A DNA stretch of 64,000 nt from Aptenodytes patagonicus (lineage: Eukaryota; Chordata; Aves; Sphenisciformes; Spheniscidae). Location: assembly GCF_965638725.1 (NCBI RefSeq), contig NC_134963.1, positions 8,625,501 through 8,689,500 on the forward strand, written 5' to 3'. The notes beneath the pieces are model-generated. The model had not been told where the DNA came from, ran no database searches, and saw only the letters and a list, made by a program, of their open reading frames with translations. Shown in pieces: positions 21,601-56,116 of this stretch; the stretch's first letter is position 1, and each line of letters begins with the position of its first letter. Made by a program: the position numbers and the translations under genes.

Positions 21601-24600
21601 ATTTCCATCTTTGCAATAAATTTAAAAAAATTAATCATTGGGAATTTTTAAAAAAATTTAAAAAATAAAAAATGAGTGAACAAATAACTAGTTTACTCCT
21701 GTTCTCTTCCAGCAAGAAAACATACACATGGATACCTTGCTGCCTCTGTCACTGCTGAATAAAATAATCACACTTCTACAAAAATAAAAATTCTGTAATT
21801 TTCCACTTACTGCACTTTATCCTGTGGGCTAGCTTTGCGCCTTCCACTCATAACAGAGGCAGGGTCCAGCAACGAATGTTCCCATATGGAGTTAGCACCA
21901 TTATTATACAGTGTTTCAACCATCTGAAATCCAAAATGTATACAAACAGGCAGTAAAGAAATTTTGCTGCCAGCTGCACAGACTGACTAATCAAGTAGCT
22001 GTAATCATTTTCAAGTGGACAGCAAGCCAAAAATTCATATTCTGTGTGCCAGCATCCATAACCCACTGGGATATCAGAACCAGGCACACGCCTAGGAGGT
22101 TATTATGTGGAATGTAATAAGAACCCCCTTAAAATTCTCTACTCTTCCCAACAGCAGCTCTACTGAAAAGAGAGGCTTGCTACATATTGAAAGTTTAGGT
22201 TGAAGCAGATGCATTGCAGAAGTCTGAAAGAAAAGTTGAAGGTGACCTTCCAAAACAAAGGTATCAAATTAAAAAGGCACAGACAATTCTGATTTTAGTG
22301 GTCCATCATGGCAAAACAAGAGAAATAAAAGGAGACTAACTTAGAAAAAGAAAGCTTAAAAGGACCAGCCCCTCTCAAACAAAAGCTTAGCGATTTAAAT
22401 TCCATTAAGAAAATGTTAAAAAAGTTAATATATCCAGTTTTAATGAAGGAAGACACAGTTTTCCTTTTTACCTGCAGCAGTGTTGGAGGCCATGGTGTAT
22501 GCTTGAGATGTCTCACTTGAGAGATATGACGCCCCAAACTTCGATGAACACTACAGCACTCATCACAGATCAGAATCCCCCTGTTTATAGATGCCCAACA
22601 AGGATCTGAAAAAGAATACATTAATGACAACACAGAAGGCAACATGACCTTGTATTTCAAACACAGGGTCTAAAATGAGGAGCCCTGCCTTCTAACCCTA
22701 GCTTTACTGGTTAGCCATTATATGAGCTTGTAAATGTTACAACCTTGCTGGGCCTCTGGATGCCGGGGAAATAACAGTCCTTGCACTTACTGGGGATGCA
22801 GGAGTCCTAGGACAGCAAGGAGACCTGCTGTGGAAACTCTGAAAAAAGCCCCACTGTTTGCAGTTCTTCCTATGAAAATAGAATATTTTCCTTTGTAAGC
22901 ATAACAGGACACTAAATTTATTACCTTCTTGAAGTGCTTACATGTCATTTAGTGCAGTCCTACAGAAATATATCTAACAATAGTACCTACCTGCTCTTTT
23001 GAAAAACTCAGAAGTCTACAAATAAAAAGTGGTAACAGTAGTCATGCTTTTTCACATATTACTCAGTCTTCATAAAAACACTCAAGAGTGTCACAGTAAA
23101 AAAAAAAGAGCAAGATACACATGTGTCAAGTTAAAGGCTCAGTAAAATCAAAAACTGTCAAGCAAATTAACTTCAACTCTGAACAGACCCAAATTGAAGC
23201 CGTCTTATAAGCAAACCAGAAAGAAAACTGATGGAAGGCAGAAGTAGTAAACAATATATACTAGCTACTATGTAGCTTCAAACATCAAAAAGTATAAATC
23301 CGAGTAGGAATGCTACATCAGATTGAAACTGAATATATGCGCAACAGAACATTAAACTGAGGTCCCTCTGCTGCTCTTAGCTCAGTCTTCAGAAGAAAAC
23401 TCCAGTTTTCTGTCAGTGACACACGAAACCCAGCGTGCCAAGAACCCTGCAGTAACAGGCAACTGAGTAGCAAGACAGATCTTCAGATCTAGCACATCCC
23501 AGGAGAAAGAAAAAGGAATTCAAGATCTCTTCTATTTTGGAAAATTCTTCTTAATTTCAAATCCAGAGATGAGTTTGAGGCTAAATAAGTGAGTACAACA
23601 CAAGCCTAGTATCTGATGAGAGAAATTCTGCATCCTGTCAGAATACATCTAAGCAATTGTGCATGATAAAAGTAGTCTTCTCTGACCCATGCAATAAATG
23701 TACTGAATCCCTGAAACATGAGATCTGATCATAGTTGTGGTTTTTGAGCGGAGTTGATGTTGTGCGTGTGCTGAAGGCAATGTAGGCAAACCTGTTCGAA
23801 CCACGGGCCACGAGGGATGGGAGCATCTATTCACAGATGATAACTATCACAGCCCAGAGCCAAATTAAAGCATATGTTTTAGAAAAAAACCTAACCTAAT
23901 TTAAAAAACAAATTAATAACAAGCATACAACCTCCCTATTAAATCATTCCATTATTTTAACAACTTTCACTTCTAAGAGGGAAAAAAATAACAACGAAAT
24001 GAGATGCATTAGCGCTAACCTAACAACCCAAGACTGGAGGCAGCCTTCCAGATTAATGAGTCTAGTCCCTTTTCATTACAGACAACCTTATCACACACTC
24101 ATTCATAAACTAATAGGATTCTCCTGAAAGCCATTATGTTTCTTGTTTCAATCACTAGTTAGACTGCTTGTGAGCCTCGCTCTGTTTTGATGACTAACAG
24201 TCATCATCAGTTTTTTTTCCTTACATCCACCTCAATACCTAACTTAACTGGCTCCAAACAATGGCCGTTTAGCCAGGGTAAAGTCAGCTACTGTTTATTT
24301 GGTCACTTCATAGCAGAAACAGGGCTTTAAAATTCTTCTAAAGAAAAAAAAGTCGAGGCCTTGCTTGTAATTTCAGCTTGTACATTCTACTTAAAAGAAA
24401 TCACATTGATCAAAGAGTCCATGTTTACGTAGAATCTGTCAAAAACTGGCACCATTGGAAATGTGGATGGCGTGATGCAAAAAAAGACAACAATAAAAGA
24501 AAAACAAAAGGAAAGACAACAGACGGATTCGGCAAGGGAACTGAAAAGTTCAGCACGATGGGCCAAGAGAACGCTCTTTGCTCCTACTAAGTGTTGGGGA

Positions 24601-27257
24601 GGCCAGAGAGAGGACCGACAGCAGCTCAGGCCCCGGTTTAGGAGCCTAAATGATACGGAACAGAGCGGATTTGACAGCGTGCATGGTGGAAAATGGACTG
24701 ATCAAAAAGCAGTGGGAAGTTAAGCACTGCAACCTGTTTTCTGAGTCACACTGGTTTAACTGAAAGAGGTTTTTTTTATGAAACTGCACAACGATTTGTA
24801 GCCCCTCAATTCAATTCATACCTGGCTTAGTACCGTTTACTTGTTCCCAAGTAACAGATGGGGATGGGAAAGGGAAAAGGAACACAGTGTTAGACAGTCT
24901 GAAGAAACAGAGAGCGAGCTATCAGGTTATGGGAAAATTGATATTTCAGGTTTAAATTAAACTCCAGCACAAACACTTAATTAAATTAATTTGGATCATT
25001 TTAAGAGAGATCCAATCATGGACACAATCAAAACATGCTTAAGCTGATACCAAAATACAACAGGGAAGAAGCTAGAAAGATAGGTCAAATCTGTTTTCAG
25101 GAACATGGCAGAGTGATTCAAAACAGGAAGCGTGTGATGAAGACAAGCCTGAACCGTGAGTGTGAACAGTGAACTCCTGCCTGAGAATAGGAAGTGTACC
25201 AGAAAAGTACACGTAAAATCACCTCATGTAAAAGAAAACTACTCATACTTTGCCATAGAAACAAAGCATGTATCGATGAACTTCAAGGGGCAAGCGCTAG
25301 TTATTCCAGCAGTCAGGCATCCTGCGCTTGCTACACCTGCTGTGGGTGAAAAGCCTGCAGTCCCCCCAGGTCTCCAGACAGAGCTGCACACACAGCAGCT
25401 CCCAAACACCGCTCTGACAAATTCTCTTTGGTTTAAGTAAAAGAACGGTTTGATTTTTTTTTTTTTTTAAATTTAAGAAAGGATTAAGTTAAGATTTCTT
25501 TATGTATACGGATAAGCCAGCAGATTTCTTCACCAAGATCAAGTAAATATCTGACAATGTTATAATGTCACAACACAACAAAATAAAAGGCCGGTTTACA
25601 AGATTACCCTAATAGTGATTCTGATACATTGCATACTCCTGATGAGCTTAACAAATACAAACACAGTAAAACAACTTTATCTCAGAGTCACAACACCACT
25701 GATGTTTAAAAGCATAGATATGCTACCTTGTATGAGATAGGGACAACTGCCTACATAAGGTATGCAAGCTCTATTTATTGTGAAAACAAAATTCTATGAT
25801 GGTAAAAGTAACTCCCTGGGAGTTAATTTGAGATTTTTTTTAATTTTTTTTTTTTTTTTAAAGCAGAAGTCCCATTTTACAAAAGTTGTTATCCCCTCTC
25901 CCACATCATACCTTCTGGCCATTCAAATGTTATCTACCTTACAGTGTTTTAATTCATTTCAGTATGTACATAAGTAATTGTATTGGAAGAAGCAGCACAG
26001 AACACAAACAACAAAAACTACATAACTCTGAGAAGGAAAGACAACACAGTTGCTAAAAAAAAAAGTAAAGTGGACAGTTTTAAATATAAGAACAGCAAAA
26101 CTACAGATGGTCAGAAAAGGAGATGCAACTGACTTTCTAGAAACAAGACTTGTTTCAATAAGCTCCCAAATTTATCTGCAGCATAAGACGGACAACGTGC
26201 ATGTCAACACAGAACACGTGTTGCTCACTGAACATTTCCAATCCAAGTCTATCGGGCATTTCGAATACCCTTTCTTTAGAAGTTTGGGATACCTACACTC
26301 AGCTCAGGCCGTGGGACAAGTCATGCACTTAACAAGCTTAAATTTTACTTCCCCCTGACCCTCAGCATAAGGGATGTCCCCAAAATCCGTCCCGCTCTCA
26401 TCTTCACACGTCCCCCGAAATGGCCACTGTCCCACTCAGTGACACAACCTACACCCTCCTCCCACCTTTTAGCTCCGTGACTGGAAGATTTCTTTAAGTA
26501 AGCCTTCCTCCTTTCGAAGCTGAGGAGTTCCAGATTTACTTATAACCAGAGCGCGGTCGTTGTCCACAGGCCATTCCCCGAAGGTCTGGCCCCTCGGCGC
26601 GGACCCGGCCCCAGGGGCGCAGAGCTGACCTGAGAGGGCAGGGGGGAGAGACGGCGGTAACAGCCGGGCTACCGGTGCGACCTGTATGCTTTGAAACTAA
26701 AGTTACAGCAAACTGAAGAGAGGGCTGAGCGCACCATCGCTCGGTACGAGAATGGGTCCTTCAGGAAAAGGCCGATACGGACAAAACCGCTGAAGACGCG
26801 TCCAAACCCGGCAAAACCGGCTCCCCGCCGCCGAGGGGCCGCTACAAGGCGGCGACACCCCGGAACAGCGCCGGGGAGGTGCGGGCCCGCGCCGGGAGCG
26901 CCGCCTTCCCCCGGGACGCTGCGCCGCGCTCCCCCCGCGCCGGGTGCCGGGGCCGCTCCCGGGGGCGGCCCGCTGACAGGAGCCCCCCCCCCCCCCGCCG
27001 CGCAGGGGTGCCCCGGCCCGGCGGCCACGGCCATTGCGAGCCCGGCGCTTCCCGCCCCCCACGGCCCCTCACGGCCGCCACCTGCCCGCGCCCCCTCAGC
27101 GCCTGAGGGGGGGGAAGCGCCGCTGCCCGGTCTGAGGGGAGGGGGATGGGCTCGCCCGGCCGCCGGGGTGCCTTCGCCGCGCCCCCGGCCGCCGCCGGTG
27201 CCTACCCTGGGCGCTGCAGTCGGCGCAGACGTCGCTGCTCCTCAGGCGCTTCGACAT
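654..27257 (-). CDS. GIT2: GIT2, ARF GTPase-activating scaffold protein (3' end outside window)
   Basis: GIT2 is a cytoplasmic and focal-adhesion scaffold that stimulates GTP hydrolysis on Arf proteins and binds PIX and paxillin. Coding exons, 5' to 3' on the minus strand: 27257-27206, 22605-22472, 21923-21811, 21067-20962, 20597-20511, 20365-20235, 19091-18997, 18168-18123, 16548-16497, 14334-14262, 13918-13821, 13499-13388, 12361-12219, 11385-11236, 7982-7734, 1055-973, 836-654. All have AG/GT borders and phases that chain, giving about 635 codons. The ArfGAP zinc finger shows C11, C14, C31, C34 and arginine finger R39. Ankyrin repeats, Spa2-homology segments and a leucine-rich coiled coil follow. 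The translation matches recalled GIT2 better than GIT1. The paxillin-binding C-terminal exons lie past position 1. Exons joining 7734 to 1055 may be missing or alternative. Confidence 0.95.
1385..2935. repeat. Minisatellite, 19-bp monomer with 58-bp higher-order unit
   Basis: Degenerate tandem repeat on the plus strand, rich in GGGAGGCC and GCCAAAAC blocks. The anchor GCAGATT recurs at 1864, 1922, 1980, 2057 and 2115, spacings of 58, 58, 77 and 58, and 77 is 58 plus one 19-bp monomer. Near 2820-2900 the simple 19-bp monomer (AGGCCAGACCGAGCATGGG) is plain. The open frames across it on both strands are repeat artefacts. A CR1 end interrupts the array. Confidence 0.88.
2437..2558 (+). mobile_element. 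CR1 LINE 3' end fragment
   Basis: This matches the recalled 3' end of avian CR1 retrotransposons: a GGCCAGGCTGGATGGGGCTT start, then the TCTAGTGGAAGGTGTCCCTG block, CTTTAAGG, CCTTCCAACCCAAACCATTC and a terminal TTCTGTGAT. Only about 120 bp is present, the usual 5' truncation. Minisatellite sequence lies on both sides, so it was inserted into an existing array or the array grew around it. Confidence 0.92.
7983..11235 (-). other. GIT2: GIT2 intron, AT-rich
   Basis: Long intron between the coiled-coil exon (11385-11236) and the exon at 7982-7734. Apart from a possible CR1 terminal remnant near 10067, only homopolymer A/T tracts were seen. Confidence 0.6.
10067..10087 (-). mobile_element. Possible CR1 3' terminal octamer remnant
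   Basis: Two copies of AATCATAGA followed by ATAG resemble the reverse complement of the CR1 terminal octamer repeat (ATTCTATG). The following sequence does not match the standard CR1 3' UTR, so this is either a divergent subfamily or a chance match. Confidence 0.4.
11761..11789. repeat. C15-T14 homopolymer pair
   Basis: Fifteen C followed directly by fourteen T, inside a GIT2 intron. Length is likely polymorphic or subject to sequencing error. Confidence 0.9.
12826..12885 (-). CDS. GIT2: Putative 60-nt in-frame cassette exon of GIT2
   Basis: Between the exons at 13499-13388 and 12361-12219, both borders at phase 1, lies a 60-nt open segment. It has an upstream pyrimidine-rich tract, an AG acceptor and a GTATGA donor. 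Inclusion would add 20 residues beginning GIKEYKYLCQQ and rich in serine and histidine, without changing frame. GIT genes are known to be alternatively spliced in this linker; whether this exact exon is used is inference. Confidence 0.55.
13519..13542. repeat. G24 homopolymer next to a GIT2 splice acceptor
   Basis: Twenty-four G on the plus strand, which read as C24 on the GIT2 strand. The tract begins about 20 nt upstream of the acceptor of exon 13499-13388, where a polypyrimidine tract is expected. Confidence 0.9.
15096..15663 (+). mobile_element. Solo LTR of an avian endogenous retrovirus (ERVL-like)
   Basis: The element begins TGTACTGGGTCTGGCTGGGA and ends CCACCACA, so it has the TG...CA termini of retroviral LTRs. 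Internal blocks (GGATATTCCATACCA, CATGCTCAGC, CCTATTAAACTG) match a solo LTR recalled as abundant in birds. An ATTAAA signal at 15545-15550 fits the R region in plus orientation. The flanks ACTTC (15091-15095) and ACTTG (15664-15668) look like a 5-bp target duplication with one mismatch. No internal retroviral coding sequence is present, so it is a recombined solo LTR, antisense to GIT2. Confidence 0.85.
16216..16266. repeat. TATC/ATAG palindromic AT tract
   Basis: Interspersed TATC and ATAG units, including the perfect palindrome TATCTATATATAGATA. It lies in a GIT2 intron and could form a cruciform or be polymorphic. Confidence 0.75.
17257..17275. repeat. G19 homopolymer followed by GA-rich tract
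   Basis: Nineteen G followed by an AGAGAAAAAGAAAAAG purine tract, in the GIT2 intron between exons 18168-18123 and 16548-16497. Confidence 0.9.
19100..19115. repeat. Short (CA)n microsatellite at a GIT2 acceptor
   Basis: About seven CA units on the plus strand, reading as (TG)n immediately upstream of the acceptor of GIT2 exon 19091-18997. Confidence 0.75.
22472..22605 (-). CDS. GIT2: GIT2 exon 2, catalytic part of the ArfGAP domain
   Basis: This exon completes the zinc finger (C31, C34) and carries the catalytic arginine R39 in the SVHRSLG motif, followed by the GRHISQVRHLKH segment typical of GIT proteins. All catalytic residues are present, so the GAP domain looks active. The acceptor is CAG and the donor GTAAAA. 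Confidence 0.93.
22606..27205 (-). other. GIT2: First intron of GIT2
   Basis: A 4.6-kb intron between the first two coding exons. It is AT-rich up to about 26400 and becomes GC-rich as it enters the CpG island. Several 60-100 codon open frames occur, but none looks like a known protein or has coherent splice sites. Confidence 0.7.
27206..27257 (-). CDS. GIT2: GIT2 first coding exon (start of ArfGAP zinc finger)
   Basis: The start codon at 27257-27255 opens MSKRLRSSDVCADC, the invariant GIT amino terminus. The exon carries the first CxxC pair of the zinc finger and ends in phase 1 at a GTAGGC donor. It sits inside the CpG island. An out-of-frame upstream ORF overlaps this start codon (see the entry at 27242-27505). 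Confidence 0.93.
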
Positions 27258-31400: not shown

Positions 31401-34400
31401 CAGATGGGCAATTGTGTTCTTCGTTTCAACTTGCATATTCCATAGCGCTGTGGGAGATGGAGACTTTTTCCTTGACTTTACTTTGAAATCCTTAGTCATG
31501 AACTCCAGCATTGGAGGCTGAATCTTGAAGGTGTTGCTGTTCCTTTAGTAAAATAAGGAAGAACAGCTCATCAGAAAGCAGCAGTGGTAGGCCAGTGTCT
31601 TTTATGTTTGTTAGTTTCAATTTCATTTTTTTAACGTTCATCTATCATGTCTCGAGTTCTGTTCTTTTTTTGTTTTTCTTTATCTAAAATGTTCACGAGA
31701 AATGCTGTACTGAATCTTGGATTAAAACTATTTCATGAAGTATTCATAAAGTATTTTCCTTCTTCAGACTCCTGACTTTTATGTGGAAATGAAATGGGAG
31801 TTCACTAGCTGGGGTAAGAATCCTGGTCATCGTTACCTCTTCTAAACTGTAGACGAAGGGACTGGCTTATGTACAAATGTCACAAAAGATATGCAGAGAA
31901 ATATCTGCTCCCCAGAATACTTATCTCTTCACCTCTCAAAATAACCTTTTATATTTTTGTTGCACAGTTATTCTTTGTTTCCTGTTTATTTGCTTCGTTT
32001 GGGGTTTGTTTGTTTGTTAATGGAGAGTTTAGCCATTGTTAGAATTGCTGAAGACGTTTCTTGGGGTTTTGTTTACCTGTCTCTGGCTATCGATGACTAA
32101 GACAGCGATACACATCTCACAGATAGATGCACAGACTACTTGGGAAATACCTGCTTTTCTTTTAAAGGAATGAACACTAGGCCTTACAGTTGACTTAATT
32201 TTCCAAACAGCTAACTACTAGACTGCTAGGAGATGGGGTTTATGCCATTTCACATCTTTTAGCCTGAACTAATGTCTTCTTCCTTTTCAAGTTCATCTTT
32301 AATGTAAAGCTGGTGGGTTTCATCCCTAAGCTGATTGTTCTTAAAGCTAAAGAAGATCAGTATCTCACCTCCTTTGGAATAATATCACAATACTGAGCAA
32401 TCCTGTGTCAGGGATATAGCTTCTGCTGGAATTCAGACTTCCTGTGCGCGAAGTCTCTTGAATATTTTTCTCTTTACTTTCTTCTCATTTTTCTGTTATA
32501 GTCCCACTGGTTTCTAGAGTTTGTCCAAGCGATGTCTGCCGCATCTGGAAAAGTGGTGCCAAGCTGCGTGTTGATATCACTTTACTGGGCTTCGAAAATA
32601 TGAGCTGGGAGAGAGGAAGGCGTAGTTTAATTTTCAAGGGAGAAGGTAAATATTTTAGCATGTCTGCACCATTGATCACCAAATATCATGTGAGCCACAG
32701 TGAGAAATCCCAACTTTGCACAAAAAGACCTGTTGAGGCTGAGTACTGAATTTTAGAAAAGTTTCATACATATATTCCGTGAGTGTCTCATAGAGATACT
32801 GTTTTGCAGCTTAACGTAACGGCTTAATTTCTTTCCTTTGAGTAAATCTGAGGTCAAAATTTGGTAATAGGGCTAAAATTTGACTTCAGTCTTTTACTTG
32901 GTTAAAGTAAAACTTGTGTTCTCCTGCCCCCCAAATAAAAAATAATTTTAGGTACAGCTCCAGATTTGATCTCAGCTGAGTGCAAAATACAGTAATTAGC
33001 ATCCACCCTGATTTGATACACAGTATATTCTCAGTTTTTCATTCTGGAATACTGTTGCTAAGTTTTTTAGATTGAGATGTACCATTTCCAACAGATACTG
33101 GAGGTTGGGCAGAACTAATTGAGATCAATCATGATGATAAGTTTGTTACAACAGAGCGTTTTGAGATTTCCCAACACATGAAGCGTTTGACATTGGGATC
33201 TATGACACCAAAAAGAAAAGATGTGGAAAGACGCCTTACATCTCCAATTATTAATACGTGCCTTGATACAAAAAATATTGCTTTTGAAAGGTAAGATACA
33301 AAGTTTCTCTTAACAAATAAACACTTCAAGATTATGGGTGGTCATACTTGCAATAAAGCTTTAAAGACAAACTCTCAAAAGCCCTGGTAATAAAAACTTT
33401 TAGGGGTAGATCTGAAATTAATTTAAACTTCACATATCATTAGATAAGGAAATTTGGCTTGGTCAGCTTGCCACTATTGCTTGGCAATATTGATTTGCAG
33501 AAAAATTCCAGTTTATCGTATTAGAGAGATCAATGTTAATGTCTCATCACAAGTTTGCATTTCATCCAAATCCATATGTATAGTGCTGAAACTAATGGGG
33601 AAGAACTTGCATCTTGTAGCTAAGTCAGTCAAATCTCACATTAATACTTTAAATAAAAATAAGTGTATAGTGTGTCTTTCCATAGACACATGTTTGTCTT
33701 CCTTGTTTACTACACGTGTTTATCCAGGTATCTGTCAGCTTAGTTCAAACAATCCTTTTTATGAAGCTCCTTTTGGAGTGCTCTGTGATGCAGTAAACCA
33801 CCCCCATGACCATACAAAACAAGTGTTTTCAAAGTGAGATGTGTAATTCCAACATCTTTCTCCTGAATATTTAGTACCCTTTCAAAGCTGCCCAGAATTA
33901 GTCCCTGTGATGTTCGCTGAGCCTTAGTAACTGCAGCATCTACTCATCCAGAAACTAAGATTTCTTAGACAGAAGTATTCCTACTATCCAGTTCCCCAAA
34001 TTGCAGTGGCAGGTTACTTTTGAAATTGAACTGTGTATTAAAAGCTGCCATGCCCAGGCTGTCGGACAAAATAATTCGGTAAGTTTTTAGGCTGTCCTCC
34101 TCTGTGGCTCAGGTATCCACATCTCAATCTAAAATCTGTCTGAGCTTTTGTGCTTTGGCCACGGACTGAATAAGAACAGAAACAGCATGACTTCCTCAGC
34201 CCTCTTGTGATATATGTGTTTGTGAGGACAGATCGACCTGTGCTTTTGTCCGGGGTTAATAATCAAATAACCTATGAAATGTCATTTAAAATCAATTTTA
34301 GAAAAACGGGCTGGGGATTGTGTAGAAATGCAACTGTATAGACGCTTGTGGTGTTCACTCTTTGTCAGAACCACATCTGGATTCTGGGTATGGAGGACAG

Positions 34401-37400
34401 AAAAAGCAGAAGGTGTAAATGGTTATGAAGCAAAGGTAAAGCCCATTCTATTCTTTTAAGAGGTCTTATAGCTAACTGAAGCATGATTGTGTTTTGCCTT
34501 TATTTCCTGAATATTTCAGGAGTTAAACTTCCTATCGAGAGCTTTATTGTGTTGCCAGCAGAACTGGGCAGGAGTGAGGAACTTCAAGGCTGCCACGTTT
34601 GTGGGAGGGATGGTGCCTGTATGCAGGAATGTCAGCAGGGGCTTTAGGGGAGCAGGAGGATTAAAGCGTTTCAGGATAAGAGGGGCAAAAGATTCAGCAT
34701 AACTGCTAGAACTCCCTTCCATCCAAAAACTGGAATTTAACTCATTCTTGCATATTGTCAATCTTTCACTGTTTTAAAAGACGACGAACCTGTTGGTGAA
34801 GTGCCGTGAGCACTCTTTAGTTACAGTATTGCAAGGAAATAACAGCCTCCTGCTGCCATGAGTTGCATCATGAATTCAAGTAATAAAAGACTGCTGGTAA
34901 ATTAAAGACCCTGACCGTGCTCATGAGTCATACAGTTGCTTAGATTTGTTCCATGTGACACTGTTTTTGTCTCCCATTTCAATTTAGTGAAATATTTCTG
35001 AAGATGGCTTTACAGCCTTACTGTGTTAGGAATTTGAGTTAAGAATCACAAGACTTAACTTCCCTGATTCATAAGTCTGTGTTTACTCCAGGTTTTGGAA
35101 TTTGTGCAATAAATTACATTTTGTAATTTCATTTAACAGAAGAATACATGCTGAATAGCTTTCTACATTTATATGAAGGTTTTTCTGGTAAGACTGCAGG
35201 ACTCTTCAGTTGGACGTGGGGTTCATTAGTGTTCCTGCAGAATTAAACTATCACTAAATTTCATTTGGAAGGTCGTACGAGTGACCTCTGTCTAGAAATA
35301 GCATCATCTGACTTTCCTTCCCCATTCTCTCTTAAAACCTCTGCCCAGGTGGGGATTCTTTCCAGGAAGCTTGGAAATGCCTGTCTAGTTTTGAGGTTGG
35401 TTTAGTTAGTTACAAAAGCGTATTTAAAAGTGTGTAAATCTGCTTTCCAGGAACTTGGTTGACAGCAACAGAAGTCAGCCTTTCAAAGTCAATGCCCAAA
35501 CTCCTTTGCCATTCTTTCGGCACAGGATGCTTGCGAGATTAATGCTGTCTGGAGATACTGTGGTGTATGATTTGCAGTGTTTCTTATTTTATCAACTTGC
35601 CCAGCAGGTGGCATGTAGTTTCAGCCTTATCATAGGTCTGTCAAGAATATATTATGTAGGATTTCCATTATACCAAAGCGAATAGAAAAATCAGAGTGCA
35701 GCATTTCCTGTTGATCACCAGTATGTTAAAGATTAAGACCTTTGTCAATGGGAGGCAGATCCATGCCGCTTTATTCTGTCTTTAGATTTGTGTACATGGT
35801 GCTTTACTAGAGAGAACTCTCTTTTTTTCTTTTTTTTTTAACCTGTGATGCTTTTTTGGTTTTTGTCCTTGTACTTTTTTTTTTTTAAAAGGTATACATT
35901 GCAAACAATGTGAATGTGGTCACAAGAATCCGAACGGAACATTTAACAGAAGAGGAGAAGAAAAGATATAAAGGTAGTTTTCCTATAGGATAACTGGAAA
36001 TAAGTAGAACCTTTTGGCTTTCTGATACCTTCTCTGTGTGACTGCAGACAAACAGGACAGATAGACAAGGGAAATACTTTTCTTGCTGACTTTGCCCTGT
36101 TTTACTTTCACATGTTGTGTGTCCGAGGTAGCTCATTACTGGACTCCTAATCTACAAATGAACCAGTATTTATCCTAGCTGTATTTAGAGAAAGGAAGAG
36201 CCCTTCGAAACTGTTCAAAGTTTATTGAAAGTTTTAAAGGACTGCGCTTTTCCATGCTTTTTGCTGCTCTGGAATGTATTCATGCTTTTACTTTGCTTTG
36301 GCCATGATTACAAGATTCATGTAGGCTTTGTTTGCTTGGACTCTTTGTTTTGTTTTGGTCCACTAATTTTGTCTAGTATTAAAACTAAAGTAAAGGGTGA
36401 CCAGCCAGTAAACTCGTATGGAAATACTGCCCTTCATTTGCCTACCTTGGGGCCCAGGGGGGGAGGCACTGTGACTAATAAAGCTATCTGCTAATGATAG
36501 AAACCACTGAAAATCTTTGCCGCTGTTCTGTGTATTGTACCCATTTTATACTGTCACCTTTAGGTCCTGGGCTTGCCTGGTAAAGCTTACAGGAAATGTG
36601 AACGGCTTACTGCACTTTGGGTTAGAGGCCTTGCTTGTTAACCTGGTGTGTACGTTAAATTTTACTGCTTATTAATAGTAATAGATTTTTTGGGTTTTCC
36701 CTCCTGTTATCTGAAGCTGACAGGAACCCCCTGGAATCATTTCTGGGTACAGTGGAGCATGAGTATGGTGCTCAGGTGAGTGTCTGACGTCGAAACAGGT
36801 CACTGCAGCGCAGAGATCTGTGCTGGTAGGAATTCTGGGTGTGTGGAATCTTGTTGGGCAGCAATTTTGATTATGAGGTTTAAATTTTCCCTGAGGATGT
36901 TTTTGTCTGTTTTAAGCCCTCCAATGTTCTGCATGAATAGCAGGTACCTCCTTCTGAACACTCTTACGAAAAAGACATAGAATCCATTAGCACAGCAAGA
37001 GCTGGGGTGTGAGCAGTGGCAGTAAATCTGAGCAAGCACAGATCTTAGTGGCAACCCACCAGTAATCTGAGAAGACATGTCCACAGACCTGCAGGAGCCT
37101 CAGGTGGGAGATAGTGCTAGCATGGTCAGACAAAGATATGAAAGGATGAAGTGATGTGTTGGCACACTGCTCTTGAGCAACTTGGAGGAAAACCATACAT
37201 CCTCTGCTGTTCTGAAATGTGGTGGTAATGATTTCGATATGGCTTTAGGAACTCCCTTGCATCTGTACGTACTTAAGTACAGTAGATAATAGATTTGCCA
37301 ACTGCTGGCTCTGTATCAGGATGGCGTTGCAGATCTTGCGTGGATCTAGAGATTTTTGTTTCAAATACCCCATCAAAGTTTTGCCTTTAATAAAGGATTT

Positions 37401-40400
37401 GGAGCCTAGAAATGCTGTAGCTTGTGTGTGCATTTCTGGTTGGTTTCTAGCTTTAAAATATTTAAGTAGATTTTTCCTGTCTCTAAAATGCTTGGAGATT
37501 TTTAGCCTCAGCAGAAAGCAGTCTAAACGTGTGCACTTGTATTTATGGCTGTGTGTCACTGGTGTCTAAAATAGAGAATGAGTTACTTCACAAGAGGTAA
37601 CTTCCAAGTTTCTTGTAGTAGCCACTGTCTATTTGTTCCGTACTTTTTGGTTTTTTCTTTTTTTTTTTTCTCTCTTTCCTTATAGAGTACGACCAAGACA
37701 ACAGAGTATGCTGCAAGTAACAATCCTACTGCTATTACTCTGGAGGAATACTTTGACCCAGAATTTGATTTGAAAGGTAGAGACATAGGAAGACCGAAAG
37801 AAGTCACCATTCGAACGCAGAAGTGAGAAATAACATTTTAACTCTTTCTAGTTTGTCTCTTCCCAGTCATCTAATCTCTGGAAACCATTTTTACAAATAT
37901 CCAGTGTGGTTTTCTCCCAGCTTTCAAAATTAATCAAAAGAGAGATCTTGGAGTATTCAGCTATACTCTAATTCTTCTTCCACTAGGTCAAAGAAAACAT
38001 TTGGACTAGTGCTGTAACTTGTTAGTGACCTCCTGTGCTTTGCCCTCAGTCTGACCAGGAATGTGGTTCGGTTTCTCAGAGCAGTAACTGTTCTGACTCT
38101 TTGAAATGTATGAAGCAGGTGACAATGCTATGTATTTTGCTTTGCATCTGTTCCTAAACTGTAAACTTAGGATGTTTTTATTCAACTTTCTCTTTAAGAT
38201 TTAAAGCAACCTTGTGGATGAGTGAAGAGTTTCCCTTGTCTCTTATGGAACAAGTCACTCCAATCATCGATCTGATGGCCAGAACTAGTGCTCATTTTGC
38301 CAGACTTAGGGATTTTATCACTCTGGAATTTCCACCGGGATTTCCTGTCAAAATTGGTAATACTTAGCAATTTTTATTGTAGCATCTTCTTCATTTCCAT
38401 TCTTTCTATTGGTTTTGCAGAGTGTATTTACAAATACCATGTTAGTTTTTTAGTAGTCATCTCACTGATACCTAGAACTGAGAACCCAAATGTACATTGT
38501 CTTGTATGTCTTGGGGTAATTGAATCCAAATTCTGAATGACCAGTACAGAGGTATAATTTTAAAGACAGTATCATTTCAGTAAGAATGAGCTGTTGCTAG
38601 CCCTTTCCTCTTAGCTTCAATGCCTGAGATTTGGCAGATCTTATTATAAAATAAGAGATTTAGAGAGAGAGTGAGAATGACTAAGGGTAACTTCTTGGTG
38701 AAGTATACTTTGTCATTACGGGATGCTGCTTGTGGAATACATTCAAGAAACATGCAAGGGTTTGATGTGGCTGTAGGTGTGGAAGTGAATGAGAGAGTTC
38801 TCTTTTTGACAGAAGTCTTGTACTCTTTCGTATAGAAATTCCCCTATTTCATGTGCTGAATGCCCGAATTACATTTGAAAATGTCAATGGCTGCAGGACA
38901 GCTGACAAAACGTCATCACAAATGGCTGGAGGTGCACAGTGTGATTCAGGTAAGGAGTGGAAAGATGCAGTGTTTGCATCTTTTTACATTTCTGTCAGTG
39001 GAATGCACAGAAGAGAGAGGTGGGTTAACTGCAGAGAATGGAACATTCACAGGTGAGAGGAAGCTGCAATGCATTACAGCTGATCTGGAGTGTGTGATGC
39101 TAATCATACTGACCCATTCTGCCCCTTCCATGCCTGCCAGACTGACTAAACTGAGCTCTAGCAAGCTTTCCCAAGTATTTTGAGGTCTAAATTCTGGTGC
39201 AAGCTATTACTATGGGAAGTGGAATACACAATTCCTGTAAGTGACAGCTAAGTCTGCATGCTCTTTCAGAAAAGAATGGATTACGTTTGAGTAGGATGCT
39301 CATGACTGCATATATCCAGTGATACTCTGTCCTATGAGCTGTTGCAGACCCATTCATTAGGAATAAGCTCAGAAGAGCCACTGCGGTATTTATCTTTTGC
39401 AACCTTTTTTCCCCCCCCCCCCATCTGGTTTTGTCAGAGTTCAGCCACCTTAGTGCTCTGCTGCACACTGGTTTTATTTGTATAACTTGCCAGCATCCTA
39501 AAGGAAGACCCTGCATTCTGTCTTACTGCTGTGCTTGTTTGCCACGGAAGTCTTTCAAAGCCTGTTGGTATATTTAGCCAGGTGGTTAATCTGAATTTTT
39601 GGAGTTAACTTAATCATGCATAAACATTCATCAGAATTTTTTAAGTCACAACTTGTAAAAATATACTGTGCCATGTTTGTAACTATATTTGGCTTCTGTA
39701 GGTCCTAATTTCGAGGTTGACCAGTCAGTGTTTGAGATCCCTAAATCTTACCATGTCCAAGATGACGGTAGGAACATACATGTGCAGGATGAAGATAACG
39801 AGATCATGCAGTTTGCTATTCAGCAGAGTTTGTTGGAATCCCGTGGAAATAAAGTAAGTGTGCTGTAATCTGTGCAGTGCAGATCTGACAGTTTTGACAA
39901 GGACTATGCAGCGATAGCTGCATCTCTGAATTAAACCCACGTAGGACCTATTTTTCTAAGAACCTCAGAAGAGAAAAATATAGTAATGTATTTCAAAGAA
40001 GAAATAAGAGTGATTTAAGAGTTGCCTTTCAGTGAGTTGCACTGCAGACCTGTTAACTGCTGTGGAATTGTCTGTCTCTCCCCATTTCTAGGAAGTGGGG
40101 ATGCATTCCAACGGAGCAGTTGCATATTCACAGGACTTCAATATACAGTATCAGAGGTAACTGATTTTTTTCACGTCACGCCATGCAGTGACAGAGCAAA
40201 AACACTTCCAACAGTAGCGTGAAGCAATTTTGCAATTTTTTTTGTGTATGTAGGTAACAGATGCACAGAACCCAAGCTCTCTTTTCTTGTGCTTCTTCTA
40301 ACTTTTACTTTTCCAAGAAGCAGGGACTCCAAACTGAGCCTCCCTGGCTTATATAGTATAGCTCTCTAGCTCAGCTGTGGGACTGGTCTGCGCACATAAC

Positions 40401-46565: not shown

Positions 46566-47110
46566 ACCCCCGTGTTCCGCCCCCCCCAGCCCCGTGTGCA
46601 TCCCCCAGCCCCGTGTTCTCCCCCCCAGCCCCGTGTTCTCCCCCCCCAGCCCCGTGTGCATCCCCCAGCCCCGTGTTCTCCCCCCCAGCCCCGTGTGCAT
46701 CCCCCAGCCCCGTGTTCTCCCCCCCAGCCCCGTGTGCATCCCCCAGCCCCGTGTTCTCCCCCCCCCAGCCCCGTGTGCATCCCCCAGCCCCGTGTTCTCC
46801 CCCCCCCAGCCCCGTGTGCATCCCCCAGCCCCGTGTTCTCCCCCCCCAGCCCCGTGTGCATCCCCCAGCCCCGTGTTCTCCCCCTCCCAGCCCCGTGTGC
46901 ATCCCCCAGCCCCGTGTTCTCCCCCCCCCAGCCCCGTGTACATTCCCCAGCCCCGTGTGCTCCCCCCCAGCCCTGTGTGCATCCCCCAGCCCCGTGCTCT
47001 CCCCCCCCAGCCCTGTGTGCATCCCCCAGCCCCGAGTGCTCCCCCCCAGCCCCGTGTACTTTCCCCAGCCCCGTGTGCTCCCCCCCCAGCCCCGTGCGCT
47101 CCCCCCCAGC
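46566..47110. repeat. C-rich minisatellite, 19-bp half-units alternating in 38-39-bp dimers
   Basis: Tandem array of two alternating half-units, AGCCCCGTGTGCATCCCCC and AGCCCCGTGTTCTCCCCCC, with C-run length varying by one or two. The array is about 545 bp, or somewhat under thirty half-units, and units are more divergent at the right end. The minus strand carries regular runs of four or more G, giving strong G-quadruplex potential. The long open frames in several phases here are due to the repeat, not to genes. Confidence 0.93.
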
Positions 47111-47985: not shown

Positions 47986-48651
47986 TCACCTCCAAACCGG
48001 AGGAGTTTGGCCCTTGGCTTCCTGCGGCGGGTCCCGTTCTCCCTGCTGTGGATCAGAGGTTTTCCTGCCTGCAGCGAGAACGGCCTCCGGTCTGCCAGCA
48101 CGTGCTGGCGGCACCGCTTCCGCCGAGATGCTCGGGTGCAACGAGAGGCGGCGGCCGGGGAGCTGCCGCCAGCACGTGCAGCTGCCGGGGGAGACACGAG
48201 GGGCAGGTTGCTGTGAAGAAGGTGATGGCAGCTTCTCTTCTGCCTGCCCCATTGCTTTGTTGGGGCAGGAGCAGGAAGCCGAAGCAGTCTCTGTGTCCCC
48301 TGGACGTGCCGCCAGGCTACAGGACAGGTGACATGCACACCGCCTCTGCTTGGGGGTCTCGCGTTGTTTTCTCCGGCCGAATGCAGATGGCGAGGCGCTG
48401 GAGGGTGTAAGCAGGCAGAGAAAAAAGGCAATGGACTTCCTTCCCACACCAGGGCCTGGTGCCACAGGCAGGGCTGCCTGCCCTGGCGTGCCAAAGCCGT
48501 CCCCACCAGAATCTCGCTCGCTGCAGGGCTGGGGCTGTGTCAGCCTGCAGCAGACCACAGCGGGCAGGAGGTGTCCCAAAAGTGGGCCGAGAGGAGGGGT
48601 GACAGTTGGGGATGGGTCTCCTGCCTCCAGGGCCATGCTGATGTAGTCCCG
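47986..48651 (-). CDS. Tentative last exon of the SLC6A4-like gene
   Basis: The TM12 exon ends in phase 0 after SLKQ. A candidate acceptor (GAGACAG at about 48658-48652) opens a phase-0 frame starting RDYISMALEAG that runs to a stop near 47986, with an AATAAA at 47811-47806. RDYIS could correspond to the ERIIKS of human SERT, but 220 residues is far longer than the usual tail of about 25. An alternative is intron read-through ending FKSYF at 48682. Neither keeps a recognisable SERT carboxy terminus. Confidence 0.3.
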   Translation of the reverse strand, partial: RDYISMALEAGDPSPTVTPPLGPLLGHLLPAVVCCRLTQPQPCSERDSGGDGFGTPGQAALPVAPGPGVGRKSIAFFLCLLTPSSASPSAFGRRKQRETPKQRRCACHLSCSLAARPGDTETASASCSCPNKAMGQAEEKLPSPSSQQPAPRVSPGSCTCWRQLPGRRLSLHPSISAEAVPPARAGRPEAVLAAGRKTSDPQQGERDPPQEAKGQTPPVWR

Positions 48652-48879: not shown

Positions 48880-51800
48880 CTGCTTGAGAGACCCTGGCGT
48901 CCAGACGAGCTTGTACACCATGTAGAAGGGGATGCAGATGAAGGACGATGCTCCTATGAGGTACCCCACTGAGATGCTCCACTCCGGGTACTGATAGTCA
49001 AAGAGTGTCAGAGGCGGCTGGTCCAGGAGGGAGCTGACGACTATGAACTGTAACGAAGCGGAGCACGTTAGGGAAGGACGCTCATGGGGCCAGACCATGG
49101 CAGGACACGCTCCACTGCCAGTCACAAGCAGGCACAGGGCTGCAGCAGGGCTGTACAGCCCGCAAAACCCATGTGCACACGACACGGGGCCAGAAAAGCT
49201 CTTTTGTGATAGCCGGGCATCTCTGGCAGACCAGCCCCGTTGGCTCCCCACAGAGAGCAGATCAGCTGCGACATCTCCCCAGCCCCGGCACTGGTGCCGG
49301 CTCATCCCATAAGTTATCCCTATATCCGCATCCCACTGCCACCCCTGCTTTCCTAACCGTGAAAGGCCAACATGGACATTGCAGTGACATTTCCCAGACT
49401 GCCACCCCTCGCTAGGTATGGGCTGGGAGGTCTTCATCTAACAAACCCCACAGAGACAGTGGCCTGCAAAGGCTGCACGTCCCCGTGCTGAAATGAAATC
49501 ATTTGCTGTCTGCTTTGATTATAATACTTCTCCCTTAATAACCTGGGCAAAGCGCTTGGAGCCGTAATTAATCCTCACAAGGCCTCTTCTCCTGCAGATC
49601 CAGTGAGATTAGACCCCTCTGTCTCTCGCAGATGGCAGCCTTTGAAGTGCCGGGGGAGCTGGCATTTCAAAGGGGATGGATCCGGCCCAGTGCACAGCGC
49701 CGCAGTGCCATCAGAGATGCAGCCACGACTGGCCGTGCCAGTGTGAGCGCGGGATGCTGCGGACCAGGAGGGTGAAACGGGGCCGCACTCACGCCCGTGT
49801 GAGCACCCAGCTGCCAGCTGCCAGCTTTGTACTGGAGCACAGCTCCAGAAGAGGCTGGAAAATGCACTTCCAGCTCCCTTTCTCATTGAAACCCGCTGTC
49901 CCAGGGGTTGCGGACAGCTTGTCATTGCCCGTGGCTGGAGCAGCAGCGTGGGGAGCTGGCAGGGAGGGCTGGCATGATGTCCTACAGCCCCAGCCAGGAC
50001 CCCAGTGCACCCTCCCAACAGCTTGTTCACCCCGTGCAAGCGAGAGGGGAGCCAGCGGTGCAGGCACCCGGGGAGCTGGGCAGCAGCAGCAGCAGCCATG
50101 GAGGGGAAGAGCAGCTCCCCTGCAGGGCATTCAGAGCGGGGTTGACAACCTGGTCTTTAATTCGGGCTATAGATACTCACTGCTAACAAGGCAGGGCTGA
50201 TGGCGACCCAGCACACCTTCCAGAACATGCCTGGGGTGAAGCCCAGCATGGCTTTCACGTCATGGGAGAACCTCTGTATCCCTGCCGGAGGAGAGAGCCA
50301 TCACAGCCCCGGAGACCCGCAGAAGACGTGGGTACAGGGACACGGACACGATGCCCTCCGTGCCCCATCCCAGCCTCGCCAGGAGTCACGCACGTGCTTC
50401 TGCCCCCAAACCCCCTGGCATTTACTCACCTGCATAAGGTTAAATACCCATGTAGGTGCCTGCAGGATGTTTTTCATAACAGAGGCAGTTTCTTACCGTA
50501 AAACCAGGAGACAGCAATTGTTTCCAGTAACACCACCGCCAGGATTGAGCAGCCAGCACCAAATTCCTCCAGCAGTTTCACCACGTAGGCTCCCCCCTGG
50601 AACAGCACAAGGGAGGGGAGGGCAGCTGCAGGGGTGCGGAGCAGGTCTTTGGCAATGTCCCGCACCAGGGGTTGTTGGAGAGACGAGTAGGTGTGTGGCG
50701 GGGACGGGAGCGGAGCGGTGCCCGGTACTCACGTAGGTGAGAGTGCTCAGGGAGCCCAGGAAACAGACTGTGATGAGGCCGAGGACGAAGAGCTCCCGTC
50801 GCCCAGCCAGGACCTGGGGGTACTCGTCCATCACAGCCGTGATCACGGCCTCCAAGCCCCCAAACTGCAAAGGAAACGCCGGCGTGGGGTGGAGAAATGA
50901 GACGTGGGGACAGTCCTGCTCCCCGAGAAAAATCTGCTCTGCTCACGGCCCCCTCTGCCTGTGAGCAGAGGGGGGACATCCCATCCCGTCCCCTCCCTCC
51001 ATCCCCGCTCTGGCCATGCTCGGAGGGCTCAGGCAGGCAGCTCTCCTTCCCGAGGCCATAGCTCCCCTTGTCACCCCGCTATTAGCCATGGGACACGGCC
51101 ATCCCCAGACCCCACTGGGGACACGGCTCCAGGCTGCATGGCTGTGCTGTCGCACTCCACAGAGGTGCCTACCGTGCTGTCCAGCCCCAGCGTTATCATC
51201 ATCAGGAAGAATATGATGGCAAAGAAGGTGGATCCCACCATGTTGGCGATTGCTTCAGGGTAGGTGATAAAAAGGAGGCTTGGCCCTGGGAGGGGACACC
51301 GGTTTGGTTTGCTGTTCACCGGCTGCTCTGGCACAGCCCTGGGTGCCGGTGGGAATGCGCTTGGGGAAGATGCCCCAAAGCCAGAGTGGCCGTGCCTGGC
51401 CCTGGCTGAGAGACAAGGGCCAGACACCTCTCTGTCCTCTGCTCCTGGGAACGGCTCCTGGGCACAAGCCCCCACACCCTGGCAGACCCCAGGGCCAGCC
51501 ATCACCCTGGCCCCCCTCGGCCACGATGGGCACACAGAGCCCTGGGGCACCTGGGCACCGCGGGGCCAGGATGGGGCAGTTGTGCTGGAGAGAGACGAAC
51601 CTTTATCTCTTGCAACATCCTCCACCTCCACGTCCCTCATCTCAGCCATGTAGCCGAGCACGGTGAAGATGACGAAGCCCGAGAGGAAGCTGGTGAGGCA
51701 GTTCACCATGCTGGTGATGAGCGCGTCCCTGGAAAGCAGAAAGCAGGGAGACGTGTCCTGCGGCAGAAACGTCCCTCCAGCACAGCTCTCGCACCATCTC

Positions 51801-54800
51801 AGCTGACCCAGTCGCCTGCACCCCCGCCAGTTCCCTCTTCCAGCCCCGCATACCAAAACCATCAGTAAAATGGGGAAAGATGCTCAGCCTGTGGCCGCGG
51901 GGTGCAGGAGCTGTCAGGATGCGGCTCCACTGCAGCCGTGCCTGGTGCAGCCCCCATGCCCACAGGGTGCAGCCCCTGTGCCCGCAGGGACCCATGGCTG
52001 CGGGAGCTCACCGGTAGCAGTTGTTGTGGAAATGGTTGTAACTGGCGAGAGCAAGAAGGACACCGAATCCAGGGCCCAAGGAGAAGAAAATCTGCGCAGC
52101 AGCATCAACCCAAACCTGGCAGGAGAAGCAACAGGCAGGCTGGAGAATAGGCACGGGGTCCTGGGGGCTGGGAGGTGCCCCACGGCGTGCCTACCCCATA
52201 GCATGCCTACCCCGTAGCGTGCCCACCCCACAGCGTACCCACCCCACGGCATAGGGATGGGGTCCTTGTTGGTACATACTGCCAAACCTCCTCTCTTGCC
52301 TGGGGCTCCTTCCCCTGCCCCGTGCTCCCGCAAAGGCATCCCAGGAGCAGGGGAGCTGCCATGGGAAGGAGGGAGCTCGTTTCCACCCTGGGTCCTGCAG
52401 CAGCAGAATAAAGCAACAGCATCTGCACTCCCCTGTGCCTGGAGGGGGGACGGAGTCGAAGGGAGCCCCGAGACCCCCATGCCCACTCCTGCCCTGGCAG
52501 GTTCAGTCCCAGCAGCACGACCCTGATTACCTTTAATGAGAATTCTCAAGTGCTGCCTGGTAATTACCCACAGGAAGCCTATTGTCAGGTCAGGGCGAGA
52601 ACACAGCACAAACAAAACCCAGTGGCAATGAGATGGGTGATTCAATTACAGATTTACATTTCCAAGAGCCTGTCCAGGGCGTCTTGTTTCTGTAGGAACA
52701 AGGGCCCCATCGCACTGCGGCTCTGGCCAGACCCTCGAGCAGGAGTGGCTGTGTGTCCTGGGGAGGGGGTCTGGGTGCTGCCATTCCCAGGGCGGGGGGC
52801 AGCCGGAGCCGGGGTGGTGCATCCCACTGCACACTCACTGCGGTGCTCAGGAGCTTGCCCCAGTCCGGGCGCAGGTAGAAGATGACCCCTCTCCAGGCGC
52901 CAGGCAGGGTAGCCCCCCGGACCAGCAGGATGAGGAGGACGACGTAGGGCAGCGTGGCCGTCACCCACACCACCTGGAGAGAGGCAGCCATCAGCCCCTG
53001 GTGCCAGCAGAGCTGCTCCACCAAGCGCCCAATCCACCTGTGTCGGGCACGGCCAGCTCGCTCACGGCTGCCCAGGGTGGCCGAGGGGTAGGGGTGTGGG
53101 GAGGAGGCAATATCCCATGTTTAAGCAGCCAGGAAGACCCCACCAGCTGCCAGGCACATGCTCTGCTTGGTCCCTCCTGCCTGGCCCTGGCCATGGAGGG
53201 GATGCTGCATGCCGGGCTGCAAGCCCCCCCGTGCCCAGGGCTCTGGCACGTCCATGCCCTGGCAGGGCTGGCAGCAGAGCCCTCTTTCTTACCTTCCCGG
53301 AGGTTTTCACCCCTTTCCACAGGCTGAAGTAGACGATGGTGAAGATGAGGAAAAGGCAGAGGAGCAGCTGCCAGTGGATTCCCCCCATGTCGTAGAGACC
53401 CCCGGACTTCTGGATCTCCAGGACCTTCCTCCTGCGGGCAGGGATCCCCACAGCCGGGGAGAGTGTCTCAGGTCAGCATGGTGCTGCTGGCTGTGCCCTT
53501 GCAGGCAGCCGGGGAGCAGGCTCAGCCCTGGGCAGGCAGTCCCACACTCACCTCTCTCCCAGCGCACTGAGAATGGGGACCGTGAGCTCCCCAAGAGCAT
53601 CCCCATGTGAAAGCCTGCTCCCAGGCACCCCGGTCCTGCTCCCCGCGCGGCAGACCCGAGTGCCTCCACAGGGATGTGCCCCAGCTTAAACACATCATCC
53701 ACGTATGTGCACTTACGTATAAAACTCTTCGGCGGGGGACCTGGAGAAGTTGGTCCAGGTCACGTTGCTCCTCCCGAAGTAGTTGGTGCAGTCGGGCGTG
53801 TTCCAGGGGTTGTCGCAGCTCGCCCAGGGCAGGGTGCCCGAGAAGGACGAGTAGAAGTAGTAGAGAGCCCAGGCGATGATGGTGTTGTAGTAGAAGGAGA
53901 CGTACAGGCCAATGATGCAAATGGCAAAGCCGATGCCTGGGGAAAGAGGGGGGCAGACTCAGCAGCCCGCGCCGGTCCAGCCCTCTCGCTGTCCACCGGG
54001 ACGCGGCTGCGGGGACCTGCACCACCTGCGTGGCCCCGCTCACCAACACTGCATGGCCCCGACTGCGTGGCAGTGGCCTGGGGCTGGGGGTCTCTTACCT
54101 TTAAAGATGGGGCAGATGCGCTTCCAGATGGGGATGGCACCCGTCCTGTGGAACTGCCCCAGGGCCAGCTCCATGTAGAAGAGGGGCACCCCTCCGAAAA
54201 CAGCCATCAGTGTGTACGGGATGAGAAAGGCTCCTGCGGGGTGAGGAGCAGAGCGGCAGTGACCACCGCGGCCCCGCGCTGGCCGGTGAGCACAGGCAGG
54301 CTGCGGGTGGAGGGCTGCCACTGCCATCCCTCCCAGCGCTGCAGGGATGTGTCACGGAGCAGCGTGCACGAGGGGTTTGGATGTGTGTTTGTAAGATGCT
54401 TTGCAAATTATCTGTTCAGAAGGGGCTCGCGGATGTGAGGACCCTGCTCGGTGCCCCAGCCTCCTGGGCTGCTGTGCTGGTCCCCGCTGGCGTCCCAGCC
54501 TTCGCTGGGGAGAGATCGTTTGGCCGGGATGGTACAAAGAGCAATAGAAACCATCAAGGGATAGGGCACCACGCACCTCTCAGGTCTAGAAGAGTTTTGG
54601 AGAAAATCCCACTGAATATGCATGGTCACCCCGAGACACAAGTAATTAGCGCTGTAATCTGCATTATTCATAACAATGTCATCTGTACCAGGGCTACACT
54701 TGTACCCCATGGAGGTTTTGGAACTGGAGCTGCCCACCACGCTCGTCAGAATAGCCCTGCTGGGATTAGTTAATTTAACCCCCACGGCTCCTCTTTCCGA

Positions 54801-56116
54801 GAGCCCTCCACGCGCTCCACCCTCAACCCCTCAAGGGTTTCTCTTCTAGGAACATCTCCAGCTGATGGGTGAGCCCAGCACTGGCCTGGATCAGCTCTCC
54901 CGCCCTGCGTGGACCATGGCTGTCCTTTCCAAGAGCTGCTGTTTGAACTTCTCACCTTCCTGTGTGCGTGGGGCGGGTAAGGAAAGCATCTGCCTGACCC
55001 ACATCAATGAAGAGTGGCTAAAGTTTGCTCCCGGTCCCACAGGAGTAAATCACAAATAACTGTGCTTGGATGTGGGCACCTGGGATCCACATTTTAGCCT
55101 TGAGTATGGTACTAATTATCTCCTTCTAATTTTCCCAAGCAGTAGAGGACGTTACCCGAATGCTGACTTTGGCAATTAAATCCACTGTGCTTTTGCAAAC
55201 AGCACAAAATTTTCATTCCTCATTTTTAATTTCCATGCAAGGGGTTTTTCTACTCTGCTCTATTTAAAGCAATTTATTTAGTTGTCATTTACTCAAGGTT
55301 TTTTCCTTCACGGACCTTTTGTATCTTAACTTGCTGTTGATCCCTCACAGGAGCGAACACCTGCAGCCCTGTGCAGCGCGGGGCCGCGCGTCCCGGAGAG
55401 CCGGGGCTCCTCCGTGGGGTCCAGCACTGCCGGCTGCACGTCCGGGATCTGCGGCAGGCAGCTGGGATGCTTGCGAGGATTATTTTAAAACACAAGCCAT
55501 CAGAAAGGGTTGCTTTCACAAAGTCACAAGATCATAAAGGGTGCAAACCTTCCACCCTAAATTTGCAGATTCTTAATCCTTTTATGCAGTTTGGACCACG
55601 CTAGTTTTCTCTTTGTGATCCTAGAGCTGCTAACGCACCTCCAACCATGCCAGGGAAGGAGTGAATGACAACAGGGAAGGAGTGAATGGAAGGGGATTTT
55701 GAATGAAGAAAGACACAAAACAGAAAAGAGACAGATGTCAGGAGAAGTTGGGTCAATCTCCAAACTGCCCTCTCCGGAGAGGAGCAGCTAGAGACAAAGA
55801 AAGAAAAGCAGCAGCGAGTTTTTCAGCATCAGAAAGATGAAAACCAGATTTCTTTTCTCCAAAAGAAGACTTAAATAATCCTAGCGGTGTCCTTACCCCC
55901 TCCGTTTTGGTAGCAGATGTAAGGGAATCGCCAGATGTTGCCCAGATCGACAGCGAATCCGATGACCGAGAGGAGGAAATCCATTTTTTTGCTCCATTTG
56001 TCCCTGGGGTGGCTTTGGGACCCCGGGGGTGCGAGGCCGGCTGTGGGACCCAGGCGGGGGGCCGTGCCCTGCCGGGGAGGGCTGGCGGCAGGCGCCGGGC
56101 AGGGCTGCTCTGCCAT
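48880..56116 (-). CDS. SLC6A4-like sodium-dependent monoamine (serotonin-type) transporter
   Basis: Plasma-membrane Na+/Cl--coupled neurotransmitter transporter of the SLC6 family. Exons: 56116-55897, 54233-54099, 53936-53717, 53431-53293, 52973-52839, 52115-52012, 51728-51601, 51285-51173, 50864-50733, 50596-50497, 50281-50181, 49047-48880. These 565 codons chain in frame and cover all twelve membrane helices. Substrate-site D57 (human SERT D98), Y134, Y135, F294, F300, S397 and T398 are kept; no indel relative to recalled human SERT occurs from TM1 to TM8. The extracellular-loop cysteines C159 and C168 are present. SERT-like text includes CTNYF and SPAEEFYT. F54 and V131 are as in DAT/NET. 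The start at 56116 has a good Kozak context (AGGATGG). The final exon is uncertain. The donor after exon 51601 is weak (GTTCGT). Confidence 0.92.
53717..53936 (-). CDS. SLC6A4-like exon with TM3 and glycosylated extracellular loop 2
   Basis: TM3 reads [14 protein letters not shown], lining the substrate site. The loop carries the C159/C168 disulfide pair, the NVT sequon equivalent to human N217 and an extra NFS sequon at N181. The position of human N208 is aspartate (D167), so that sequon is lost. The loop ends SPAEEFYT, a SERT hallmark. Confidence 0.88.
55897..56116 (-). CDS. SLC6A4-like exon with N terminus and TM1
   Basis: This exon encodes about 45 residues of proline-rich cytosolic N terminus, then [15 protein letters not shown] and TM1 with [13 protein letters not shown], the Na+ and substrate site. 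D57 marks it as a monoamine transporter; amino-acid transporters of the family lack this aspartate. The N terminus is roughly 40 residues shorter than in human SERT. An upstream 5' UTR exon is likely but not identified. Confidence 0.85.

Follow-up and report, generated by a model that had tools for sequence, protein, structure and literature searches.

An intact second serotonin transporter gene, in all likelihood SLC6A4B, beside GIT2 in Aptenodytes patagonicus

We analyzed a 64,000-nucleotide stretch of Aptenodytes patagonicus DNA (hereafter the window), which is part of contig C15 in a 1.35-Gb genome, and compared its genes with others of the same genome on contigs C15, C17, and C11. The window carries a real and intact gene of the SLC6 family that is almost certainly SLC6A4B, the second vertebrate serotonin transporter (SERT) gene, an old duplicate that probably stems from the early vertebrate genome duplications and was reportedly lost in placental mammals. 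From the present analysis come the intactness of the gene, its placement on the SERT side, its coexistence with a canonical SERT, a duplication before the split from mammals, and the paralogues shared by C15 and C17; its presence in other vertebrate classes and its absence in eutherians come from the literature.

The gene lies on the minus strand with a coding span of 56116-48317 and 13 coding exons (Table 1). Joined, these give 1776 nt, encoding 591 amino acids and a stop codon, and all 12 introns are GT-AG with consistent phases. The original prediction had joined twelve exons in frame, which was borne out by GT-AG introns and matching phases; it ended the gene at 48880, however, and overlooked a thirteenth coding exon at 48397-48317. 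With exon 13, which encodes the C-terminal tail and the stop, the coding span extends to 48317 (56116-48317, not 56116-48880). The position and phase of this exon are the same as those of the last exon of the canonical SLC6A4 in this genome. Chance is excluded because 591 codons run through 13 exons without an internal stop, and because the differences from the canonical copy are biased by codon position. Two other candidates were rejected: a retrocopy is ruled out by the presence of introns, and a pseudogene by the absence of an internal stop, the canonical splice sites, and the third-position bias.

Table 1. Features of the window, with positions counted from its first nucleotide.
Feature	Position	Strand	Remarks
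GIT2	656..27257	-	18 matches to GIT2 probe; GIT1_C match; 3′ end probably beyond the window
ANKRD13-family gene (ANKRD13A in the original prediction)	32567..38355	+	Two domain exons
SLC6A4B coding exon 13	48317..48397	-	Stop codon and C-terminal tail (ends in SPVL); acceptor CTCCAG, phase 0
SLC6A4B coding exon 12	48880..49047	-	Joined gene model
SLC6A4B coding exon 11	50181..50281	-	Joined gene model
SLC6A4B coding exon 10	50497..50596	-	Joined gene model
SLC6A4B coding exon 9	50733..50864	-	Joined gene model
SLC6A4B coding exon 8	51173..51285	-	Asp and Ser of sodium/substrate site
SLC6A4B coding exon 7	51601..51728	-	Joined gene model
22-bp tandem repeat, 2.1 copies, intron 6	51944..51989		Tandem-repeat calling
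SLC6A4B coding exon 6	52012..52115	-	Joined gene model
16-bp tandem repeat, 4.4 copies, intron 5	52178..52247		Tandem-repeat calling
SLC6A4B coding exon 5	52839..52973	-	Joined gene model
SLC6A4B coding exon 4	53293..53431	-	Joined gene model
SLC6A4B coding exon 3	53717..53936	-	Large extracellular loop, two conserved Cys
SLC6A4B coding exon 2	54099..54233	-	GT-AG, phase 1
SLC6A4B coding exon 1	55897..56116	-	Start codon ATG at 56116, N-terminal tail, TM1; donor GTAAGG

The window protein matches the Pfam SNF profile (PF00209) over residues 38-557 and profile positions 1-522 of 524 (749.7 bits, 2.3e-225); that is, it carries the full-length SNF domain that marks SLC6 sodium:neurotransmitter symporters. 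Among the best 60 of 104 matches of its 527-aa core to solved chains, the serotonin transporter came top (902.5 bits), and the noradrenaline transporter reached 679.8 bits and the dopamine transporter 677.3 to 622 bits. Identity to the human proteins was 72.1% for SERT (526 sites), 59.0% for the noradrenaline transporter (NET, 468 sites), and 54.2% for the dopamine transporter (DAT, 524 sites). SERT leads by both measures, in agreement with the predicted SLC6 monoamine transporter closest to SLC6A4. The TM1 aspartate (human SERT Asp98), which we take to be the amine-binding residue, is D in the window gene, in the two SERTs and two NETs, and in DAT; a GABA-transporter-like outgroup has G there.

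The window gene had been taken for a second copy, and a separate canonical SLC6A4 was indeed found in the same genome, running on C17 from 8433800 down to about 8421410 (588 aa, 13 coding exons). Two SERT genes are thus present, and the suppositions that the window gene is the only SLC6A4 of this species, or that the genome has no second SERT gene, fail outright. Upstream of the canonical gene, on the same strand, lie nine Peptidase_C1_2 matches of the bleomycin hydrolase type (C17 8449254 to 8468243), and this BLMH-type gene starts 15 kb from it. SLC6A4 and BLMH presumably stand in the same order on human 17q11.2, and it is because of this adjoining gene that we identify the C17 copy as canonical SLC6A4. 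The related gene on C11 is NET, with 1003.8 bits to the noradrenaline transporter chain vs. 803.4 to the dopamine transporter chain. The two SERT copies of A. patagonicus are alike in having 13 coding exons, with exons 2-12 equal in length and the same phases, but only 68.9% of their residues are identical over 588 sites. Their C-terminal tails differ (SPVL in the window gene, MNAV in the canonical copy), as do several pocket residues.

We placed the window gene in a tree of seven sequences (the window gene, the SERT and NET of this genome, human SERT, NET, and DAT, and the GABA-transporter-like outgroup, also of this genome), a sampling without fish, amphibian, marsupial, or invertebrate sequences. 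The tree was run with five letters in two rows supplied by analogy at exon joins, and again with these letters masked (427 columns). The A. patagonicus and human SERTs formed a pair with the window gene outside it, the SH-aLRT/bootstrap support being 99.8/100 for all columns, 98.2/98 for the 431 ungapped columns, and 98.4/98 with the five letters masked (427 columns). The three SERTs were separated from NET/DAT and the outgroup with support of 99.3/99 and 99.8/100 unmasked and 99.3/100 masked; masking of the hand-supplied letters left the result unchanged. Because the canonical SERT of this genome pairs with human SERT and the window gene falls outside that pair, the SERT duplication most likely predates the split of the bird lineage from mammals. 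Four alternative placements had AU P-values of 0.003, 0.011, 0.025, and 0.001 (unmasked) and 0.003, 0.008, 0.024, and 0.001 (masked). The SH test rejects only the last of the four, the other three having P = 0.073, 0.074, and 0.117 (unmasked) and 0.075, 0.069, and 0.117 (masked).

Two of these placements correspond to other accounts of the gene. The first joins the two A. patagonicus copies, as would be the case if canonical SLC6A4 had recently been duplicated within this lineage and the new copy had come to lie beside GIT2. The equal lengths of coding exons 2-12 and the SH test (P = 0.073) are compatible with such a history, but the AU test speaks against it (P = 0.003), the canonical SERT shares 85.4% of its residues with human SERT (526 sites) and far fewer with the window gene, and the introns show that no retrocopying took place; we regard the chance of a recent origin as negligible. 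The second placement lies inside SLC6A2/A3, where the window gene would belong to the NET/DAT branch and be SERT-like only in looks. This condition, which would have counted against the original prediction, is rejected by the AU test (P = 0.011 and 0.008) but not by the SH test, with P near 0.07 (0.074 and 0.069). We also compared letters at 80 discriminating sites (masked), defined as those at which the two SERTs share one letter and the three NET/DAT sequences share a different one. In the window protein, the NET/DAT letter occurs at 20 of them, several in the binding pocket, against 52 with the SERT letter and 8 with a third (before masking, 55 SERT and 20 NET/DAT letters). Membership of the NET/DAT branch is accordingly very improbable, and the window gene stands on the SERT side.

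Letters equal to those of human SERT are found at Asp98, Asn101, Ser336, Asn368, Asp437, Ser438, Cys200, and Cys209, which we take to be ion, chloride, amine, and disulfide sites of human SERT; one of the two glycosylation asparagines is altered in the window protein (D at 208). From these residues, the window protein would be expected to carry out sodium- and chloride-dependent serotonin uptake of the ordinary SERT type. The pocket differs from that of canonical SERT by Y95F, A173S, S174F, A441G, T497A, and V501I. Five of these six changes (Y95F, S174F, A441G, T497A, and V501I) are NET/DAT letters, A173S being the window protein's own, and SERT's Gly100 and Thr439 are kept. The NET/DAT letters, whether taken or kept, raise the possibility that SERT-B is a transporter of altered selectivity rather than a spare SERT, which we consider conceivable but doubtful. 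Furthermore, over a 525-codon core, differences between the two copies in this genome number 109 at first, 75 at second, and 296 at third codon positions (NG86: dN = 0.185, no valid dS). Because the differences pile up at third positions, they point to selection on the window gene at the protein level.

Both neighbour families that the original prediction had named beside the second SERT gene, GIT2 and an ANKRD13 gene, were found. At the GIT2 locus, the 18 minus-strand matches of the GIT2 probe sum to 1282.6 bits and the 14 of the GIT1 probe to 845.2 bits, both probes being approximate; one of the 18 (1151-939, 34%) may be a chance match. Four of the many plus-strand ORFs listed upstream, and a single short ORF near 46.3 kb, had no Pfam match above cut-off, and no tRNA was found within the window. 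The stretch that separates SLC6A4B from the ANKRD13 gene contains a GC-rich minisatellite (about 46200-47110), whose end at 47002-47110 was called by TRF in a scan from 47000; the remainder appears as repeated peptides in ORFs. An IFT81 domain is located at C15:6693937-6695748, about 1.9 Mb from the GIT2-ANKRD13 block. IFT81 is a close neighbour of this block in human, so the human order is broken here.

Beyond the immediate neighbours, the acetyl-CoA carboxylase central domain (ACC_central) has 16 matches, all of them on C15, 0.26 Mb from the window, or on C17, and 21 NO synthase matches are on C15, C17, and C57. Because these two families are common to both, C15 and C17 look like paralogous chromosomes, and their shared paralogous families fit a genome duplication. 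The third NO synthase locus (C57:500118-501925) is possibly NOS3, a gene that is reportedly hard to find in birds. In human, a GIT1-ANKRD13B block is presumed to accompany SLC6A4, as the original prediction stated. In an exon-by-exon search of this assembly, which may have gaps, GIT1 was found neither on 80 kb of C17 nor genome-wide, and ANKRD13 had no match on C17 and six matches on C15, C7, and C5, in each case among the matches listed. The parallel put forward for the two SERT blocks has GIT2 and ANKRD13 in the window and the paralogues shared between C15 and C17 in its favour; a GIT1-ANKRD13B counterpart was not found in this assembly. The missing GIT1 perhaps reflects an assembly gap or a missing GC-rich stretch; a chicken GIT1 protein is said to have been described.

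The absence of GIT1, and of any ANKRD13 match near canonical SLC6A4, among the matches listed, would also suit an old SERT duplicate that arose before the mammal split by segmental rather than whole-genome duplication and only later came to lie beside GIT2. We consider this unlikely, given the acetyl-CoA carboxylase and NO synthase paralogues common to C15 and C17 and the report of both SERT copies in fish (PMC4894405). An origin of SLC6A4B in the early vertebrate genome duplications is the account that we prefer.

Lovell et al. 2015 (PMC4894405) report SLC6A4B in fish, amphibians, reptiles, birds, and metatherians and its absence in eutherians, regard it as a likely ancestral vertebrate duplication, and state that sauropsids have lost the dopamine transporter. 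Because SLC6A4B had thus been described in birds, the window gene is not new, and the novelty implied by the original prediction does not hold, both avian SLC6A4B and its eutherian absence having been published in 2015; the finding is a correct rediscovery of a known gene. Like the SLC6A4B of Lovell et al. 2015, the window gene is a second SERT coexisting with canonical SLC6A4, and no difference between the two is known; that they are orthologous is taken from the published description. Two SERT genes are present in most teleosts (PMC4456567), and zebrafish slc6a4b, which bears the same gene name in the literature, is likened to the window gene by name, not by sequence.

A 2023 review (PMC10394247) includes, among its entries for impulsive behaviour, a VNTR in slc6a4b, the SERT paralogue of chicken, and refers to Abe et al. 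2013 (Anim Sci J 84:281-288), a paper whose title mentions intronic VNTRs of a chicken SERT paralogue. Two introns of the window gene, 5 and 6, likewise contain tandem repeats (Table 1), and these are candidates for VNTRs of the kind published for chicken. In a chick retina atlas, SLC6A4 marks a bipolar type, and either SERT copy could be meant. A search of the literature, mainly outside subscription journals, found neither a functional test of avian SERT-B nor data on its expression in birds. When the whole genome was searched with a human DAT probe (83 matches listed, 81 of 179 candidates scored), the best matches fell at the NET locus on C11, and among the candidates scored no separate DAT locus was apparent, nothing bar the two SERTs matching exon after exon at the NET level. 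This agrees with the published loss of DAT in sauropsids without proving it.

The interpretation originally offered is partly supported. In the history that we favour, an ancestral SERT would have duplicated long ago, the early vertebrate genome duplications being the most probable occasion; SLC6A4B would have stayed beside GIT2 and an ANKRD13 gene, canonical SLC6A4 would have stayed beside BLMH on the paralogous chromosome, and placental mammals would have lost the SLC6A4B copy. The encoded protein is predicted to be a plasma-membrane transporter of the LeuT fold, in which sodium and chloride gradients would drive serotonin, and possibly other monoamines, back into cells. The transport activity, substrate, expression site, and exact date of SLC6A4B are what we infer, and the 2R date and the identity with slc6a4b draw on published work as well as inference.

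With two SERT copies, studies of drugs, knockouts, and polymorphisms become more complicated in birds and fish, and a complete gene model with a list of pocket residues makes this known problem concrete. Reportedly kept in sauropsids and not in placental mammals, SLC6A4B offers a natural test of the role of a second serotonin transporter. If its selectivity is altered, SERT-B could, in animals that lack DAT, take catecholamines as substrates or show another response to antidepressants.
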